Virus record (IMG/VR): IMGVR_UViG_3300027911_000039 | Coordinates: 1-34,748 of that record | Strand: one strand, 5' to 3' | DNA: 34,748 nt | Source of the DNA: a virus | In this document: one piece after another, positions 28,598 through 34,044 of the stretch | How positions within the stretch are numbered: the first letter of the stretch is position 1 | Layout: every line of letters starts with the position of its first letter | Made by a program: the position numbers and the translations under genes | Notes under the pieces: model-generated | Database searches by the model: none | What the model saw: only the letters and a program-made list of their open reading frames with translations | Told to the model about the DNA's origin: nothing

Positions 28598-28918
28598 TTA
28601 TACCTTTCTCTTCCATTTTGGAATCTGCTTCATATTATCACCCATTGACTTTATCAGTTTGTCATTCAACTCTTTCAACTTCTTATTTTCTGAACGAAGT
28701 GAATGTACTTCCTTTGCATCATCTCGCATTCTACCGAGTTGATAAAGGAACTCTCTACCAATAGTATTAGCTGTTAGGAGGTCGTTTCTACCAAATACAT
28801 TGTATATTTCGTTACATACATCAAGCTGGTCTAGTGAACCCTTCATGTCACCTGGTGTAACTTTTATCATCACATCCAGTGAATGAGTAGCGGCGTTATA
28901 TTGTGCGTACATTTTCAT
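28598..28918 (-). CDS. Hypothetical protein with C-terminal coiled coil (106 aa)
   Basis: An N-terminal alpha-beta part (MYAQYNAATHSLDVMIKV, then NEIYNVFGRNDLLTANTI) leads to a coiled coil (RSENKKLKELNDKLIKSM) and a basic end (WKRKV). GGAG lies 8 nt upstream of the ATG, which is inside the acetyltransferase gene (23-nt overlap). No family recognised. Confidence 0.65.
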   Translation of the reverse strand: MKMYAQYNAATHSLDVMIKVTPGDMKGSLDQLDVCNEIYNVFGRNDLLTANTIGREFLYQLGRMRDDAKEVHSLRSENKKLKELNDKLIKSMGDNMKQIPKWKRKV

Positions 28919-29405
28919 ATGATTTCTCCATTAGTATTTCATCTTCTACTTCTTGTCCCGCCAACTTGGTACACCCAGTACGTCTCCCAGTAACCTGAAA
29001 TCCGAACCTCTGATACAAAGCGATGGCTGATGTGTTTCGTTCCCTGACCCAAAGCTCAATACGAACGAGACCTGCTGCCTGCGCTTTACTGACGACAGAC
29101 GCCAAGAGGCGTTTGCCAATACCTTGTCCTCTGTATCCATCTTGTACTCCCATTATTAATGTACCCCAATGGTCTCTCCCTTCGCCAGTCTCAGGAACGA
29201 CACTTGCGAAGCCTACTACCTTGTCGTCTTCTGCTGCTATGACGATCGGCCAACCTTTCATACGAAAGCGCATGATCCAGCTACTTATCTGGCCACGTGT
29301 GTAGGAACTAGTGATAGCAAAGTGTATACGTTCCTTTGCAATACTATCCATACATTCGTAGAAAGAATCTACATGTTTTACATCTGGTGTGAATATGTCT
29401 ATCAT
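28896..29405 (-). CDS. GNAT-family N-acetyltransferase (169 aa)
   Basis: The acetyl-CoA binding loop is clear: GVQDGYRGQGIGKRLLASVV (residues 86-105, with the R/Q-x-x-G-x-G core), preceded by the strand VVGFASVVPETG (63-74). Conserved ELWVRERNTSAIALYQRFGF (117-136) gives motif B. Length is typical. The substrate cannot be told from sequence. Within a DNA-modification operon it could acetylate a modified base, a host protein or a small molecule such as an antibiotic; a housekeeping-type cargo gene is also possible. Confidence 0.9.
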   Translation of the reverse strand: MIDIFTPDVKHVDSFYECMDSIAKERIHFAITSSYTRGQISSWIMRFRMKGWPIVIAAEDDKVVGFASVVPETGEGRDHWGTLIMGVQDGYRGQGIGKRLLASVVSKAQAAGLVRIELWVRERNTSAIALYQRFGFQVTGRRTGCTKLAGQEVEDEILMEKSYENVRTI

Positions 29406-29818
29406 GAGAAGAAGTCCTTCAAGTTAGGTGTATCCAGTTTAATGTGCTTGAAGAAGTTACCACATTTGTAGTAGCTGCTGGTATCCTTACCGGTACAATA
29501 ACGTGTGCTGTTATCTTTACTCACGAATGCACCTTCACATTCGATGTTAATAGTGCGGTCATCGTTTACACTTACAAATGTCAACTTACGTACGTTAAAC
29601 CAGTAGTCTTTATCATTCACGATGAAGTAACGATTATGTTTCCCCTGAAACATCTCAGGAAGTGCGTTATTCATCTTAAGTGTACTATCTTTCGTACCCA
29701 TAATACGACTGATGGAATATTCGATATTCTTCCACTCACGAATATCGAATGCAATACTCTCACTTACTGGTATCTCTTTAATAATACCAACGGTATCTGG
29801 ATGGATGTGAATGATCAT
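29402..29818 (-). CDS. Hypothetical protein next to queF (138 aa)
   Basis: It reads MIIHIHPDTVGIIKEIPVSE, with a probable beta-rich core (RYFIVNDKDYWFNVRKLTFV, then SVNDDRTINIECEG) and two cysteines near the C-terminus (YCTGKDTSSYYKCGN). GAGGAGA precedes the ATG. It follows queF by 9 nt and overlaps the acetyltransferase gene by 4 nt. I do not recognise a family; the position makes it a candidate accessory factor of the modification pathway. Confidence 0.68.
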   Translation of the reverse strand: MIIHIHPDTVGIIKEIPVSESIAFDIREWKNIEYSISRIMGTKDSTLKMNNALPEMFQGKHNRYFIVNDKDYWFNVRKLTFVSVNDDRTINIECEGAFVSKDNSTRYCTGKDTSSYYKCGNFFKHIKLDTPNLKDFFS

Positions 29819-29827
29819 GTTGTCTCC

Positions 29828-30562
29828 TCACCCGCGAAAGGTTTTGTTAGTTAAGATGTCCATACGAAGGAACTCTGGTCTTGTCATGATAAGCCCCTTA
29901 CTACGATATGGCCAGATATCAATGCCACCTCTACGTGTATATTTAGCAAACACTTCTAGTGCGTTATCTGGATGGCTTGCACTTGCTAGTCGATCGAAGA
30001 TCAACTCAACACACTCTTCGTGGAAGTGGTTCTCATGAGCTAGCTCATCAAGTCGTGCAAAATCACTAACGATACGAGTATCAGCATACGTATACAGATC
30101 ACCAAAGTCTGGTTGCCCTGTTACCTTGCAGTTACTACGAAGATGTGGGTTGCAAGAATACCCGCTAACATCGTCATATACGACTGTGGTTCCGACTGGA
30201 AAGAAGTTTACCACTACATCTGGACCTGTTACGTTCACCAAGTCACATCGCACCTGCCAACAGAAGGCATCTTCTGTCACATACATTGTATCTGCGTGAC
30301 TGAACATGTACAACTTCAACGACTTGCTCTCTACTAGGTTTGGGTTCTTTAGCACATTAAACCTAATCTTTGTAATACCGCTAACACGTGAACCACCCAT
30401 TCCGTCATTTACGAGAAATGTTGTCTCGTAGCAATGCCAGACGTCATATCCTGTGTCGAACTTATCCGTAATCTGTTGCCTTGCTTCACCAACTAGTAGT
30501 GATGCATCTCGCTCCTTTGTCTGATACGTGCTCGTCTTACCTAGGTATTTATCGATACTCAT
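29828..30562 (-). CDS. queF: QueF, preQ0 reductase, bimodular type (244 aa)
   Basis: The whole protein tracks E. coli QueF (282 aa): LGKTSTYQTKERDASLL at 7-23, NLVESKSLKLYMFS at 75-88, LRSNCKVTGQPDFGD at 141-155 and HFHEECVELIFD at 179-190, then YTRRGGIDIWPYRS at 208-221. The thioimide Cys is Cys145, the proton donor Asp152, and the substrate-binding pair is His181-Glu182. The ESKSLK segment, part of the QueF signature tied to NADPH use, is intact. It should reduce preQ0 nitrile to preQ1. QueF-like amidinotransferases of archaea are the main alternative. AAGGAGAT precedes the ATG. Confidence 0.92.
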   Translation of the reverse strand: MSIDKYLGKTSTYQTKERDASLLVGEARQQITDKFDTGYDVWHCYETTFLVNDGMGGSRVSGITKIRFNVLKNPNLVESKSLKLYMFSHADTMYVTEDAFCWQVRCDLVNVTGPDVVVNFFPVGTTVVYDDVSGYSCNPHLRSNCKVTGQPDFGDLYTYADTRIVSDFARLDELAHENHFHEECVELIFDRLASASHPDNALEVFAKYTRRGGIDIWPYRSKGLIMTRPEFLRMDILTNKTFRG

Positions 30563-31073
30563 TTATGATCTCCTTTAGTTGTCTTACCCTCTCTACTACA
30601 CTTGTATACCTACCCAATACCGTATAAGGTATATTTAGCTCTACTACCTTATTATATATCCATGCATCAATATATTGTGCACTTTTTTCATCTGTCCAAC
30701 GAACTCCATCATCCTTCACTTGCTTGAACGGTTCGAATAACACCACGTGTGTCAGTTTAGTCAACTCTGGTTCTAGTTTCTTTGCTAACCAACATGAACT
30801 AGTAACAAAGGTGGTATTCTTCGTCTCATTCAAGTAGTATGTGTAAGCTAGTCCATCTAAGAGACAACGATCCATGATGATGTTATCATCTTGTAACTGA
30901 ACGGCTTCACGCATAAGTACATACTTCTGTATATCATCTGGATCTAACCAGTTACGCTTTGCAATGGCTAGTATCTCACGTGTGCAACTAGGCACCTTCG
31001 TGAGATCTGTATCTAGTGCAGCAAGTAATGTACTCTTACCTGTACCGTGTGAGCCCGAAAGTGCTATTCGCAT
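30549..31073 (-). CDS. P-loop kinase-like ATPase, AAA_28/NadR-type (174 aa)
   Basis: Walker A GSHGTGKST is at residues 7-15, with a later IIMDRCLLDGLAYTYYLN segment (65-82) and a predicted core strand THVVLFEP (108-115). The layout resembles the P-loop kinase fold of NadR-type ribosylnicotinamide kinases and related phage nucleotide kinases. Its start overlaps the upstream gene by 10 nt and its end overlaps queF by 14 nt. A role in phosphorylating a nucleoside, a modified-base precursor or NAD intermediate is possible. The substrate is unknown. Confidence 0.8.
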   Translation of the reverse strand: MRIALSGSHGTGKSTLLAALDTDLTKVPSCTREILAIAKRNWLDPDDIQKYVLMREAVQLQDDNIIMDRCLLDGLAYTYYLNETKNTTFVTSSCWLAKKLEPELTKLTHVVLFEPFKQVKDDGVRWTDEKSAQYIDAWIYNKVVELNIPYTVLGRYTSVVERVRQLKEIINEYR

Positions 31074-31519
31074 AGGAACTTACTCCACATAGCTACTGCA
31101 AGTAGACGACTAATATCTTCAGATTGCTTCACATCTGCACCGTAGAATGGACGATGCATCATAACTTCACCACTGTCTAGTTCACCTGTTGCACGATGGA
31201 TGATGTTAGCTTGTGGTTCCATCTGTGTATACAACTGGAAGTGACGTTCGATTGGATCCTTACCCTTCAGTTGTGGATGTCGTACGATATCACCTGGGTG
31301 TAAGTTATACACATCATGCTGTAGGCAGATATCTTCAGGAATGATAACCATACATCCCATCAGACAGATGGTAAACTTTGCTTCACGTTCACGAATGTAT
31401 TGAAACCATACATCCTTATTCTTGTGGTCGATCTTGATCAACTGTGCTGGATGTACAGCTGATACTGCCATAGCCACTTGACCTGTTCTACTATATAAGA
31501 ACATCCTCTGTTTAGACAT
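31064..31519 (-). CDS. Hypothetical protein inside the 7-deazaguanine cassette (151 aa)
   Basis: The ATG follows GGGGA. It contains ICLMGCMVIIPEDICLQHDV (residues ~51-70), then YNLHPGDIVRHPQLKGKDPI and a His/Gln-rich middle. No family is recognised. It lies directly downstream of dpdA with an 8-nt overlap, so it is co-translated with the transglycosylase. This makes it a good candidate for a missing function in DNA modification. Confidence 0.7.
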   Translation of the reverse strand: MSKQRMFLYSRTGQVAMAVSAVHPAQLIKIDHKNKDVWFQYIREREAKFTICLMGCMVIIPEDICLQHDVYNLHPGDIVRHPQLKGKDPIERHFQLYTQMEPQANIIHRATGELDSGEVMMHRPFYGADVKQSEDISRLLAVAMWSKFLCE

Positions 31520-32336
31520 TTATATTCCCCTTCACTGCGTTACGAAATATCATCACATTGTTGTAAAGACTAAGCTCTTGTCTCTCGTTCAATACAAGAT
31601 CGAGATTCTCAGCTAGCTTATGTGGTGACTTATAGTATACTAGATGTTGTGCTTGACATAACATATGTCCGTCATCTGGATAGTTCACTCCATCAATAGC
31701 TGCCATTATTGGTAAACTAGTATCTACACTTATTACATTACCTGGATATCTCTTGTACACAAACTCAGCATACGACTGACATCCTAGTAGGTGAATCCAC
31801 ATCTGCGGATTATGTGCCAACAATGCATCCACTACTTCACCTCTTTGTTGTATGCGTTTGGTTGGATCTTTGCTGAAGAAAGCGTAGTTGTAACCAACAC
31901 CTACAACACTGACAAATGAACGAATACGCTCATAGTGATCGATTAGTTGTTCAATGCTTTTACCTTGTAGTGCTTGACAACGTAATACTTTCTTGTCAAT
32001 CTTATGGTCATGCTTATCCATCCACTTATTGGCAAGGTCGATAGTGCAGCGATAACTGTCAACTACATCTGGAATAAAGAATAGATATGGATCCATCTTC
32101 TGAATAAGCTCACAATATGGAGCTGCAGGTACACTTCTACCAAGTTCGAATGCACTGTTATCTAGATAGATCTTCCTGTCATTCGGACGTGACATGTAGA
32201 AGTTGTAATAGGCTTCCAGATTAGACCATCCTTGTTGATGTCGTAACATCAGATGTGCTAGACAATAGTCATAGTCGTTGAAATGTGTACTCTTATCCAG
32301 AAACTGGATAGGTACTTCGTGTGATATCTTCATCAT
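31512..32336 (-). CDS. dpdA: DpdA-like DNA-guanine transglycosylase (274 aa)
   Basis: The start is ATG at 32336, one base after the stop of the amidotransferase gene, with AAGG upstream. Motifs fit the phage DpdA branch of the tRNA-guanine transglycosylase fold: IYLDNSAFELG (residues 56-66, Asp59), FFIPDVVDS (86-94, Asp90), WIHLLGCQSYAEF (180-192) and ISVDTS (202-207, Asp205 as likely nucleophile). It is shorter than host TGT (about 375 aa), as phage DpdA proteins are. It should swap guanine in DNA for a preQ0-derived base. Neighbouring queC and queF supply that base. Confidence 0.87.
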   Translation of the reverse strand: MMKISHEVPIQFLDKSTHFNDYDYCLAHLMLRHQQGWSNLEAYYNFYMSRPNDRKIYLDNSAFELGRSVPAAPYCELIQKMDPYLFFIPDVVDSYRCTIDLANKWMDKHDHKIDKKVLRCQALQGKSIEQLIDHYERIRSFVSVVGVGYNYAFFSKDPTKRIQQRGEVVDALLAHNPQMWIHLLGCQSYAEFVYKRYPGNVISVDTSLPIMAAIDGVNYPDDGHMLCQAQHLVYYKSPHKLAENLDLVLNERQELSLYNNVMIFRNAVKGNINV

Positions 32337-32337
32337 C

Positions 32338-32907
32338 TTATACCTTATAGGTAACATCGTTATCTCTAAACGTTTCGCCATCAATCCACAGCTTGCCGCG
32401 AAGTGAATAGATAACGCCTGCTCTTGTCATTGTGCTGCCTGGAAATCTTACCGAACTAATAGTACTACCTAGCATGTACATTGGTGCACTAGAGTTACGA
32501 AACATGTACACTTTACGTTCTCTCGTGCTATAAAGTACGCAACTAAACGAACCGTTAATATCAGATAGTACACCTAATCCATCTCTTACAATAGCATCTA
32601 GTAGATATTGTGTATCCCAACCACTAACATCTCTTAGTATACCATTGTGATACAGGTGATAGATTCCGTTGCTAGCGGGATGTATGTACTTATTACCATC
32701 TGTAGTGGTTGGTGTCTGCACATGTCCGAGGTAATATGGGTTTATCTTACTACCAGTTACATCTGGCATTTCACCAGGTCCAGCCTGTGTCAATACACCA
32801 TCCTGACCAATCTCTGTGAACGACCACGCATGCTTACCTCTTGCTTGGTTTAGTTGTGCTAGTTTCTTGAACTCGTCTAGTTTATAGCTTCCGAATATCG
32901 AGCACAT
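32338..32907 (-). CDS. Class II glutamine amidotransferase domain (189 aa), partner of QueC
   Basis: ATG at 32907 is chosen because AAGGAG lies 5 nt upstream and it puts Cys at position 2 (MCSIFG), the N-terminal nucleophile exposed after Met removal. An alternative GTG two codons upstream would bury it. Further signature segments are RGKHAWSF (23-30), LGHVQTPTTTDG (60-71), HNGILRD (87-93) and NGSFSCVLYS (118-127). It should release ammonia from glutamine. Only the glutaminase is present, with no synthetase domain, and it begins 2 nt after queC. It resembles an unfused half of Gat-QueC proteins linked to archaeosine. Confidence 0.88.
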   Translation of the reverse strand: MCSIFGSYKLDEFKKLAQLNQARGKHAWSFTEIGQDGVLTQAGPGEMPDVTGSKINPYYLGHVQTPTTTDGNKYIHPASNGIYHLYHNGILRDVSGWDTQYLLDAIVRDGLGVLSDINGSFSCVLYSTRERKVYMFRNSSAPMYMLGSTISSVRFPGSTMTRAGVIYSLRGKLWIDGETFRDNDVTYKV

Positions 32908-32909
32908 AC

Positions 32910-33635
32910 TCACTCCTTATATTCTACTGGATCAACAATATTACATAGTTCGAAGTTCTTCAGCCGTTCTGCACATGCACCACACTTACCACATGCCACT
33001 TGCTTCTTTGGCTTCATTCCATGTACCTGTACTGCACCTGTGTCTGTATTTACCCATTGTGGGTTATAACATGTCCAAGTGTCCTCGAAAGGTACACCTA
33101 GCTCAGTACCTAGCTGGATCTCTTTGGCTTTATTCCAATCGATGAAAGGAGCTATAACCTTAATCTTATGCTCACGATTAAGGTCAAATACACCATTTAC
33201 ACGTGATAGGAACTCAGGAGTAGTATCCCAATATCCATACAAGTCGTGACATTGCAGTCCGATGTATACTTCTTCAGCACCAATAGCTTCAGCAATAGTA
33301 ACTGACATGTTGAGCATAAGTGCATTACGGTTTGGTACGTACGTGACTGGTTGTGGGTGACCAAGGATATCCTCTACATCAGGAACATCAATGGTGCTTC
33401 CCTTTAAGTTACTACATACCTTAGCAAGTAATGGTTGTAGGAATCCTAGACTGATAACATGATGTTGAATACCTAGCTTGTCACATGTTGTACGTGCACA
33501 TGATAGCTCAACACTTTGTCTCTGTCCATAGTCAAAACTTATAGCGGTAACATCACGGTGAAGCTTATTACGTACATAATAAGTCAACACCGTGCTATCT
33601 AGGCCACCGCTAAGGATGACGACGGCCTTACTCAT
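32910..33635 (-). CDS. queC: QueC, 7-cyano-7-deazaguanine (preQ0) synthase (241 aa)
   Basis: ATG at 33635 is preferred over an upstream in-frame start because AGGTGA lies 5 nt before it and the protein then begins MSKAVVILSGGLDSTVL as QueC does. The PP-loop SGGLDST is at 9-15, FDYGQRQ at 34-40, VPNRN at 100-104, and the zinc cysteines are Cys189, Cys215, Cys218 and Cys221. The usual substrate-loop DYSGYPDCRPEF reads DLYGYWDTTPEF here, so the Cys-Arg pair is replaced. It should convert CDG to preQ0 with ATP and ammonia. The glutaminase gene follows 2 nt downstream. Confidence 0.96.
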   Translation of the reverse strand: MSKAVVILSGGLDSTVLTYYVRNKLHRDVTAISFDYGQRQSVELSCARTTCDKLGIQHHVISLGFLQPLLAKVCSNLKGSTIDVPDVEDILGHPQPVTYVPNRNALMLNMSVTIAEAIGAEEVYIGLQCHDLYGYWDTTPEFLSRVNGVFDLNREHKIKVIAPFIDWNKAKEIQLGTELGVPFEDTWTCYNPQWVNTDTGAVQVHGMKPKKQVACGKCGACAERLKNFELCNIVDPVEYKE

Positions 33636-34044
33636 TCGTGTCACCTGACAATGCTTCGTTTTGGTTACGTGCCTTGACATCTTGGACTAACTTCTTGATG
33701 ATGGCAGCAGCTTGTGCGTCAACTTCCTTACCAGACAATGTCTTGACACCCTTCGGTGGCTTGGTTGCCTTCACGCGTGGCTTGTTGGCTGATTCAGGTG
33801 GATTCTCACTATCGATAACTACCTGCTTTACCCTCGGCTTATCTGTAGGATAGTCACGCACCTTTACCTTGATCTTAGATACCTTGATGTTGTATGTTTC
33901 GATGAGGTTGGTGGCACGTTCTTCGGCACTAGTTTCTGTATCGTTCAATACCTCTACTAGTTGACGAACAAGTTCTTCGGTTTGCTTCACACGCTTACGT
34001 TCTAGATATTCGACCATGTAGGCCTTCTGTGCTTCAGTTTGCAT
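33628..34044 (-). CDS. Hypothetical charged protein at the start of the cassette (138 aa)
   Basis: AAGGAGA precedes the ATG. The N-terminus is helical and charged (AYMVEYLERKRVKQTEELVR). The middle (KVSKIKVKVRDYP) and a Lys/Pro-rich linker (NKPRVKATKPPKGVKTL) lead to another helix. It overlaps queC by 8 nt. It is basic in the middle, which fits DNA binding. No family recognised. Confidence 0.7.
   Translation of the reverse strand: MQTEAQKAYMVEYLERKRVKQTEELVRQLVEVLNDTETSAEERATNLIETYNIKVSKIKVKVRDYPTDKPRVKQVVIDSENPPESANKPRVKATKPPKGVKTLSGKEVDAQAAAIIKKLVQDVKARNQNEALSGDTNE

Follow-up and report, generated by a model that had tools for sequence, protein, structure and literature searches.

QueF, a standalone glutaminase and a candidate DpdN formyltransferase in a probable tailed-phage cassette for 7-deazaguanine DNA modification

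Organization of the locus

The stretch of DNA analysed, hereafter called the window, spans the 34,748 bases of the IMG/VR record IMGVR_UViG_3300027911_000039, which is classed as linear and carries terminase, P22-like portal, scaffold and major head genes. A late sigma factor-like protein (phrog_234, 1e-22) is encoded on the plus strand at 1504-1905; its occurrence alongside a P22-like portal is uncommon.

Overlapping minus-strand genes form a tight run from 34.0 to 28.9 kb. In order of transcription are found queC, a glutaminase gene, a DpdA-type transglycosylase gene, ORF 31064-31519, a P-loop kinase gene and queF. The minus-strand operon between 33.6 and 29.8 kb is most likely a tailed-phage cassette that modifies DNA with 7-deazaguanine. 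It is preceded by an ORF (33628-34044, minus strand) which overlaps queC and has no significant family match. A second ORF (29402-29818, minus strand), similarly devoid of family matches, follows queF after a gap of 9 bases; a relative was sought in 168 other loci surveyed, and none was found. The gene run is closed by a GNAT acetyltransferase gene (28896-29405, minus strand; Acetyltransf_1, 7e-19). A sigma-70-like site located upstream of the operon does not exceed the chance level (19 found, 21.1 expected).

Proteins encoded by the cassette

The transglycosylase (31512-32336, minus strand) has no Pfam match. Its AF2 model (pLDDT 93.2) has a compact TGT fold, aligning to tRNA-guanine transglycosylase over 232 residues with a VIA Z of 17.6, and the top six Foldseek matches of the model are all TGTs. 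The sole PDB profile match, a weak one (E 0.85), is the DNA-guanine transglycosylase 7ui4. The protein is homologous to the DpdA of phages CP220 (31% identity, E 3e-19) and immuto (27%, E 5e-19). The motifs D59-N-S and D205-T-S are invariant, D59 and D205 being found in 51/51 family members. The label DpdA3, used here for the compact DpdA of the window, of Campylobacter phages and of immuto, follows the naming of Cui 2023.

Taken alone, the window protein encoded by ORF 31064-31519 (minus strand) has only weak formyltransferase matches in Pfam and PHROGs, the Pfam score being below the gathering cut-off, and scanning viral contigs with this single sequence gave no match, alignments being required. 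The profile of the family, built from the window protein and 68 relatives, matches PurN at 1e-16. In the AF2 model (pLDDT 95.5), 144 of 151 residues align to PurN, with a VIA Z of 17.3 and an rmsd of 2.2. The catalytic Asn-His-Asp residues (N72, H74, D115) are present in 69/69 family members. At other positions the window protein deviates from its relatives: it has Met in place of His54 and Ile in place of Gln90 (both conserved in 67/69), Cys in place of Thr52 (66/69), and YNL in place of YNG, and is about 20 residues shorter than the family. Assignment of the ORF to QueD, or to another enzyme of the pathway, was considered and discarded, as profile and fold resolve a formyltransferase instead. 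Its anatomy is as expected of DpdN, which we take, after Cui 2023, to be the dPreQ1 formyltransferase. The ORF encodes a formyltransferase and is a candidate DpdN, the plausible acceptor being preQ1 or dPreQ1. The divergence of the window protein could reflect a different acceptor or a weakened activity.

The kinase (30549-31073, minus strand) is a P-loop nucleotide kinase of the AAA_28 family (Pfam 9.5e-18), similar to thymidylate kinase, NadR and dNK. Among PDB entries, the family profile matches thymidylate kinase (5e-6).

The queF gene (29828-30562, minus strand) starts with ATG and encodes 244 amino acids. The QueF (1e-13, 51.7 bits) and QueF_N (1.8e-11, 44.8 bits) domains both score above the Pfam gathering scores, which are 27.3 and 25.6, respectively. 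The closest solved structure, according to a PDB search, is V. cholerae QueF (3bp1, E 1e-20). When the protein was aligned to 79 QueFs from related viral loci, residues E78, S79, K80, S81, K83, C145, D152, H181 and E182 turned out to be invariant in 80/80 viral QueFs, and their conservation is therefore not due to chance. The preliminary description had placed Cys145, Asp152, His181-Glu182 and the ESKSLK segment (E78-K83) correctly. The window QueF is short, the median length being 308 amino acids: about 60 are missing, as both N-terminus and linker are shortened. It also misses the NCBIfam equivalog cut-offs (TIGR03138, 123 vs 293.45 bits; TIGR03139, 55.7 vs 86.9 bits). The protein being short and divergent, we infer its reductase activity from residues and context. 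These support an intact QueF of the bimodular type, provided with the NADPH-site motif; its predicted reaction is the NADPH-dependent reduction of preQ0 to preQ1. To this extent, and in placing the gene in an operon for insertion of 7-deazaguanine into DNA, the earlier reading holds.

The queC gene (32910-33635, minus strand) encodes a preQ0 synthase (Pfam QueC, 3e-56; TIGR00364, 174 bits against a cut-off of 150.3), in which SGGLDS and CxxCxxC motifs are present. The adjacent glutaminase gene (32338-32907, minus strand) begins with ATG-TGC, encoding Met-Cys, and its product is a standalone class II (Ntn) glutaminase. The Pfam score is below the cut-off; the class II motifs are conserved, with C2, N88-G89 and D98 invariant in the glutaminase alignment, and the glutaminase already recognized in the operon is thus real. 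Glutaminase and queC are separate genes, queC coming first, and do not form a Gat-QueC fusion. It may be added that trimmed proteins recur in the cassette, since QueF, formyltransferase and glutaminase are all shortened.

Conserved gene neighbourhood

Viral contigs were scanned with the DpdA3 and formyltransferase alignments, and 113 non-redundant loci were obtained. Frequencies given below refer to the 43 loci from the DpdA3 scan having 4 kb downstream, or to the 38 loci from the formyltransferase scan having room on both sides. The order DpdA3-formyltransferase-kinase-QueF is the rule, and is kept in about 90 environmental viral loci. DpdA3, kinase and QueF are all present in 37/38 formyltransferase-scan loci. 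Among the 43 DpdA3-scan loci, formyltransferase was found in 33, kinase in 31, QueF in 32 and glutaminase in 20. Formyltransferase and QueF occur together in 31 of them, are both absent in 9 and are split in 3 (p 9e-7, uncorrected for kinship). The formyl-capped preQ1 cassette therefore appears widespread in environmental viruses, while a single cultured phage species carries it in the collection searched.

This species is Flavobacterium phage vB_FspM_immuto (NC_055915), in which DpdA, formyltransferase, kinase and QueF are arranged as in the window, save for one small ORF after DpdA. Formyltransferase and QueF of the two phages are 31-33% identical. FolE, QueD, QueE and a PRA-PH/MazG-type pyrophosphohydrolase are encoded upstream in immuto, whose cassette has no neighbouring glutaminase; in the window, DpdA is preceded by QueC and a glutaminase, and QueF, formyltransferase and glutaminase are all shorter. 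In the FolE-DpdA2-QueF-QueC-glutaminase cluster of Vibrio phages of the KVP40/6E35.1a type, QueF, QueC and standalone glutaminase are adjacent as in the window, but the transglycosylase is DpdA2 and not DpdA3, and formyltransferase and kinase are missing. Campylobacter phages CP220 and CC_R7 share with the window a DpdA3-type transglycosylase followed by a kinase of the same family. They differ because no formyltransferase was found in these clusters, and no QueF in CP220. The product reported for the DpdA3 clusters of CP220 and CC_R7 is dADG.

A family of phosphoribosyltransferase-looking proteins is encoded about 2 kb upstream of DpdA3 in L040 (1880-2380) and in 24 other DpdA3 loci, and the family member neighbouring the immuto cassette matches Pribosyltran. 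These proteins possibly salvage the guanine freed by base exchange. A QueF match in the record CAKLQH020000036.1 (L004), denominated 'Acinetobacter phage MD-2021a', was set aside, because it sits among ordinary bacterial chromosomal genes (rodA, mltB, rlpA, tsf); the record is likely mislabelled or contaminated.

Role of the glutaminase

The association of QueF with a glutaminase had been regarded as an unusual pairing. With QueC, the two make up instead a common phage trio: QueF, QueC and a free-standing glutaminase are found together in KVP40-like Vibrio phages, in pf16 and 2.275.O, and in 20/43 DpdA3 loci. The glutaminase is also present in 37/40 QueF-bearing phage records, among the matches listed. 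In DpdA3 loci the glutaminase never replaces QueF, as all the 20 loci that host it also have QueC, QueF and formyltransferase. It adjoins queC in 16 of these, and lies at most 650 bases away in the other four.

The glutaminase had also been taken as a pointer to an amidino base such as archaeosine, a view that does not agree with what is known of two Vibrio phages and of archaeal QueF-like enzymes. Phage 6E35.1a encodes FolE, DpdA2, QueF, QueC and a glutaminase of the same family, and 15% of dG in its DNA is dPreQ1 (PMC12028318). Phage nt-1 has QueC and glutaminase, and QueF is found nowhere in its genome; the modification of its DNA is mostly dPreQ0, at 0.1%, with dG+ only in trace (PMC6884629, Table 2), and an ArcS homologue has been attributed to this phage (PMC6884629). 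As 6E35.1a makes dPreQ1, and nt-1 makes dPreQ0 with traces of dG+, the glutaminase most likely serves QueC. It would feed ammonia to QueC, upstream of QueF, and would not decide the final base. The apparent paradox is thus gone, since a glutaminase adjacent to QueF need not mean archaeosine. For free-standing phage glutaminases encoded next to queC, the fitting annotation is probable QueC partner, and not marker of dG+.

The formation of dG+ (2'-deoxyarchaeosine) in the window phage, either by glutaminase and QueC working as a split Gat-QueC, or by QueF working as an archaeal QueF-like amidinotransferase, is accordingly very improbable. Enterobacteria phage 9g, which makes dG+ (PMC6884629), resembles the window in that glutaminase and QueC are linked and a DNA-guanine transglycosylase is encoded. 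Its Gat and QueC are fused, however, its transglycosylase is DpdA1, and QueF, formyltransferase and kinase are all missing; moreover, the 9g Gat domain is matched only marginally (E 1e-3) by the profile of the window glutaminase family. The split Gat-QueC route to archaeosine was rejected on the precedent of 6E35.1a and nt-1 and on gene context. Archaeosine synthases of the QueF-like type have no NADPH site, the preQ0 thioimide being attacked by ammonium within the nucleic acid. Archaeal QueF-like is a homologue of QueF, but its substrate is free ammonium and not glutamine (PMC5485725). The NADPH-site motif ESKS-K, retained in 80/80 viral QueFs, and the adjacent formyltransferase, which requires an amine as acceptor, both argue against the window QueF being of this type.

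End product of the pathway

Only two possible end products, dPreQ1 and an archaeosine-like base, had been contemplated in the preliminary description, in which the formyltransferase gene present in the same operon was overlooked. This gene points to a third one. We consider 2'-deoxy-7-(formylamino)methyl-7-deazaguanine (fdPreQ1, N-formyl-dPreQ1), and not archaeosine, the probable end product, with a likelihood of roughly 65%. If the cassette is active, CDG would be supplied by FolE, QueD and QueE, encoded outside the fragment or by the host. QueC, with ammonia from the standalone glutaminase, would convert CDG to preQ0, and QueF, with NADPH, would convert preQ0 to preQ1. The formyltransferase would then cap the aminomethyl group using formyl-THF, acting either on the base or on DNA, and therefore before or after insertion. 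DpdA3 would put the 7-deazaguanine in the place of guanine, the kinase serving as accessory.

The fdPreQ1 DNA modification and DpdN are said to have been reported already by Cui 2023. The cassette described here is probably a further case of this modification.

Second in rank comes dPreQ1, a rather unlikely outcome in which QueF is functional and the divergent formyltransferase has a weak activity or a different substrate. The formyltransferase of the window is indeed shortened, and is off at four otherwise near-invariant positions; in addition, QueF and glutaminase give dPreQ1 in 6E35.1a, where formyltransferase is missing (PMC12028318). Against this, the enzyme retains Asn-His-Asp and a confident fold, its gene is still in frame inside a tightly overlapping operon, and formyltransferase and QueF strongly co-occur.

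Unmodified DNA, or DNA with dPreQ0 or a mixture, is improbable; it would result from an incomplete pathway in the phage or from a host devoid of precursors. FolE, QueD and QueE are indeed absent among the genes examined in the 34.7-kb linear fragment, and dPreQ0 is as low as 0.1% in nt-1 (PMC6884629). IMG/VR records classed as linear are often fragments, however, and FolE, QueD and QueE adjoin the cassette in the loci of relatives; furthermore, all the catalytic residues checked in QueF, DpdA3 and formyltransferase are intact. On the whole, N-formyl-dPreQ1 is the most likely product, dPreQ1 comes next, and archaeosine is unlikely. Nucleoside masses, as computed from formulae, are 295.13 for dPreQ1, 323.12 for fdPreQ1 and 308.12 for dG+.

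The GNAT gene 28896-29405 overlaps the ORF located after queF, and PDB matches of its product include phosphinothricin acetyltransferases, which are amine acetylators. No such gene adjoined the cassette in the loci of relatives surveyed. As a putative tailoring enzyme, the GNAT protein might acetylate the aminomethyl group. The chief doubt about fdPreQ1 is thus peculiar to this phage, and concerns both its shortened, divergent formyltransferase and the GNAT gene that comes later in the run.

The kinase as a DpdA3 partner

The kinase is a conserved partner of DpdA3. It was detected in 31/43 DpdA3 loci, and in none of the 63 DpdA1 (at least 11 kb) and 4 DpdA2 loci scanned as controls; QueC was detected in 61/63 DpdA1 loci. 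In Campylobacter phages CP220 and CC_R7 the kinase adjoins DpdA3 in the absence of both QueF and formyltransferase. In Bacillus phage BSTP8, again without QueF and formyltransferase, the DpdA3-adjacent kinase matches the family profile weakly (E 5e-5). In about 10 of the 43 DpdA3 loci with room, both the kinase and any other Walker-A protein are missing nearby. In the stretch read around kinase relatives of Streptomyces phages, no deazaguanine cluster was found.

Two further types of neighbours were noticed. A PRA-PH/MazG-type NTP pyrophosphohydrolase gene is present in 23 loci (among which L002:7209-7733, L106, L115, L120 and L132); in most it lies upstream of DpdA3, usually no more than about 200 bases away. 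In both CC_R7 and BSTP8, DpdA3 and kinase are followed by a gene for a DNA polymerase.

Full replacement of guanine is reported for DpdA3 phages, in contrast to DpdA1, which is post-replicative. DpdA3 cassettes, including that of the window, might conceivably modify guanine before replication, at the nucleotide level, an idea put forward here tentatively and with less than even confidence. The pyrophosphohydrolase, where present, would make dGMP, a mononucleotide on which the compact DpdA3 would exchange the base; phosphorylation by the dedicated kinase would then give the dNTP, to be incorporated by the DNA polymerase encoded nearby. The set of DpdA3, hydrolase and kinase resembles the hydrolase-modifier-kinase logic of phages making modified dNTPs. 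Against the pre-replicative route stand the accepted view that DpdA enzymes work on polynucleotides, and the roughly 10 loci in which both kinase and Walker-A substitute are missing nearby. If true, the route would explain why guanine is fully replaced in DpdA3 phages, compared with DpdA1 phages. The link of the kinase to DpdA3 in any case frames a testable question, whether guanine is fully replaced already in the nucleotides or only in the DNA. A modified-dNTP route has been proposed earlier for Campylobacter phages (PMC6884629).

Contiguous genes for thymidylate-kinase-like, DpdA3-like and DNA polymerase proteins are found in two cultured phages that are unrelated to each other, BSTP8 (L264) and CC_R7 (L265). 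In Cellulophaga phage phiST (L263), a distant DpdA3-like gene is immediately preceded by genes for a MazG-like pyrophosphatase and for a P-loop protein that contains a GKDT motif, the latter protein being a possible non-orthologous kinase.
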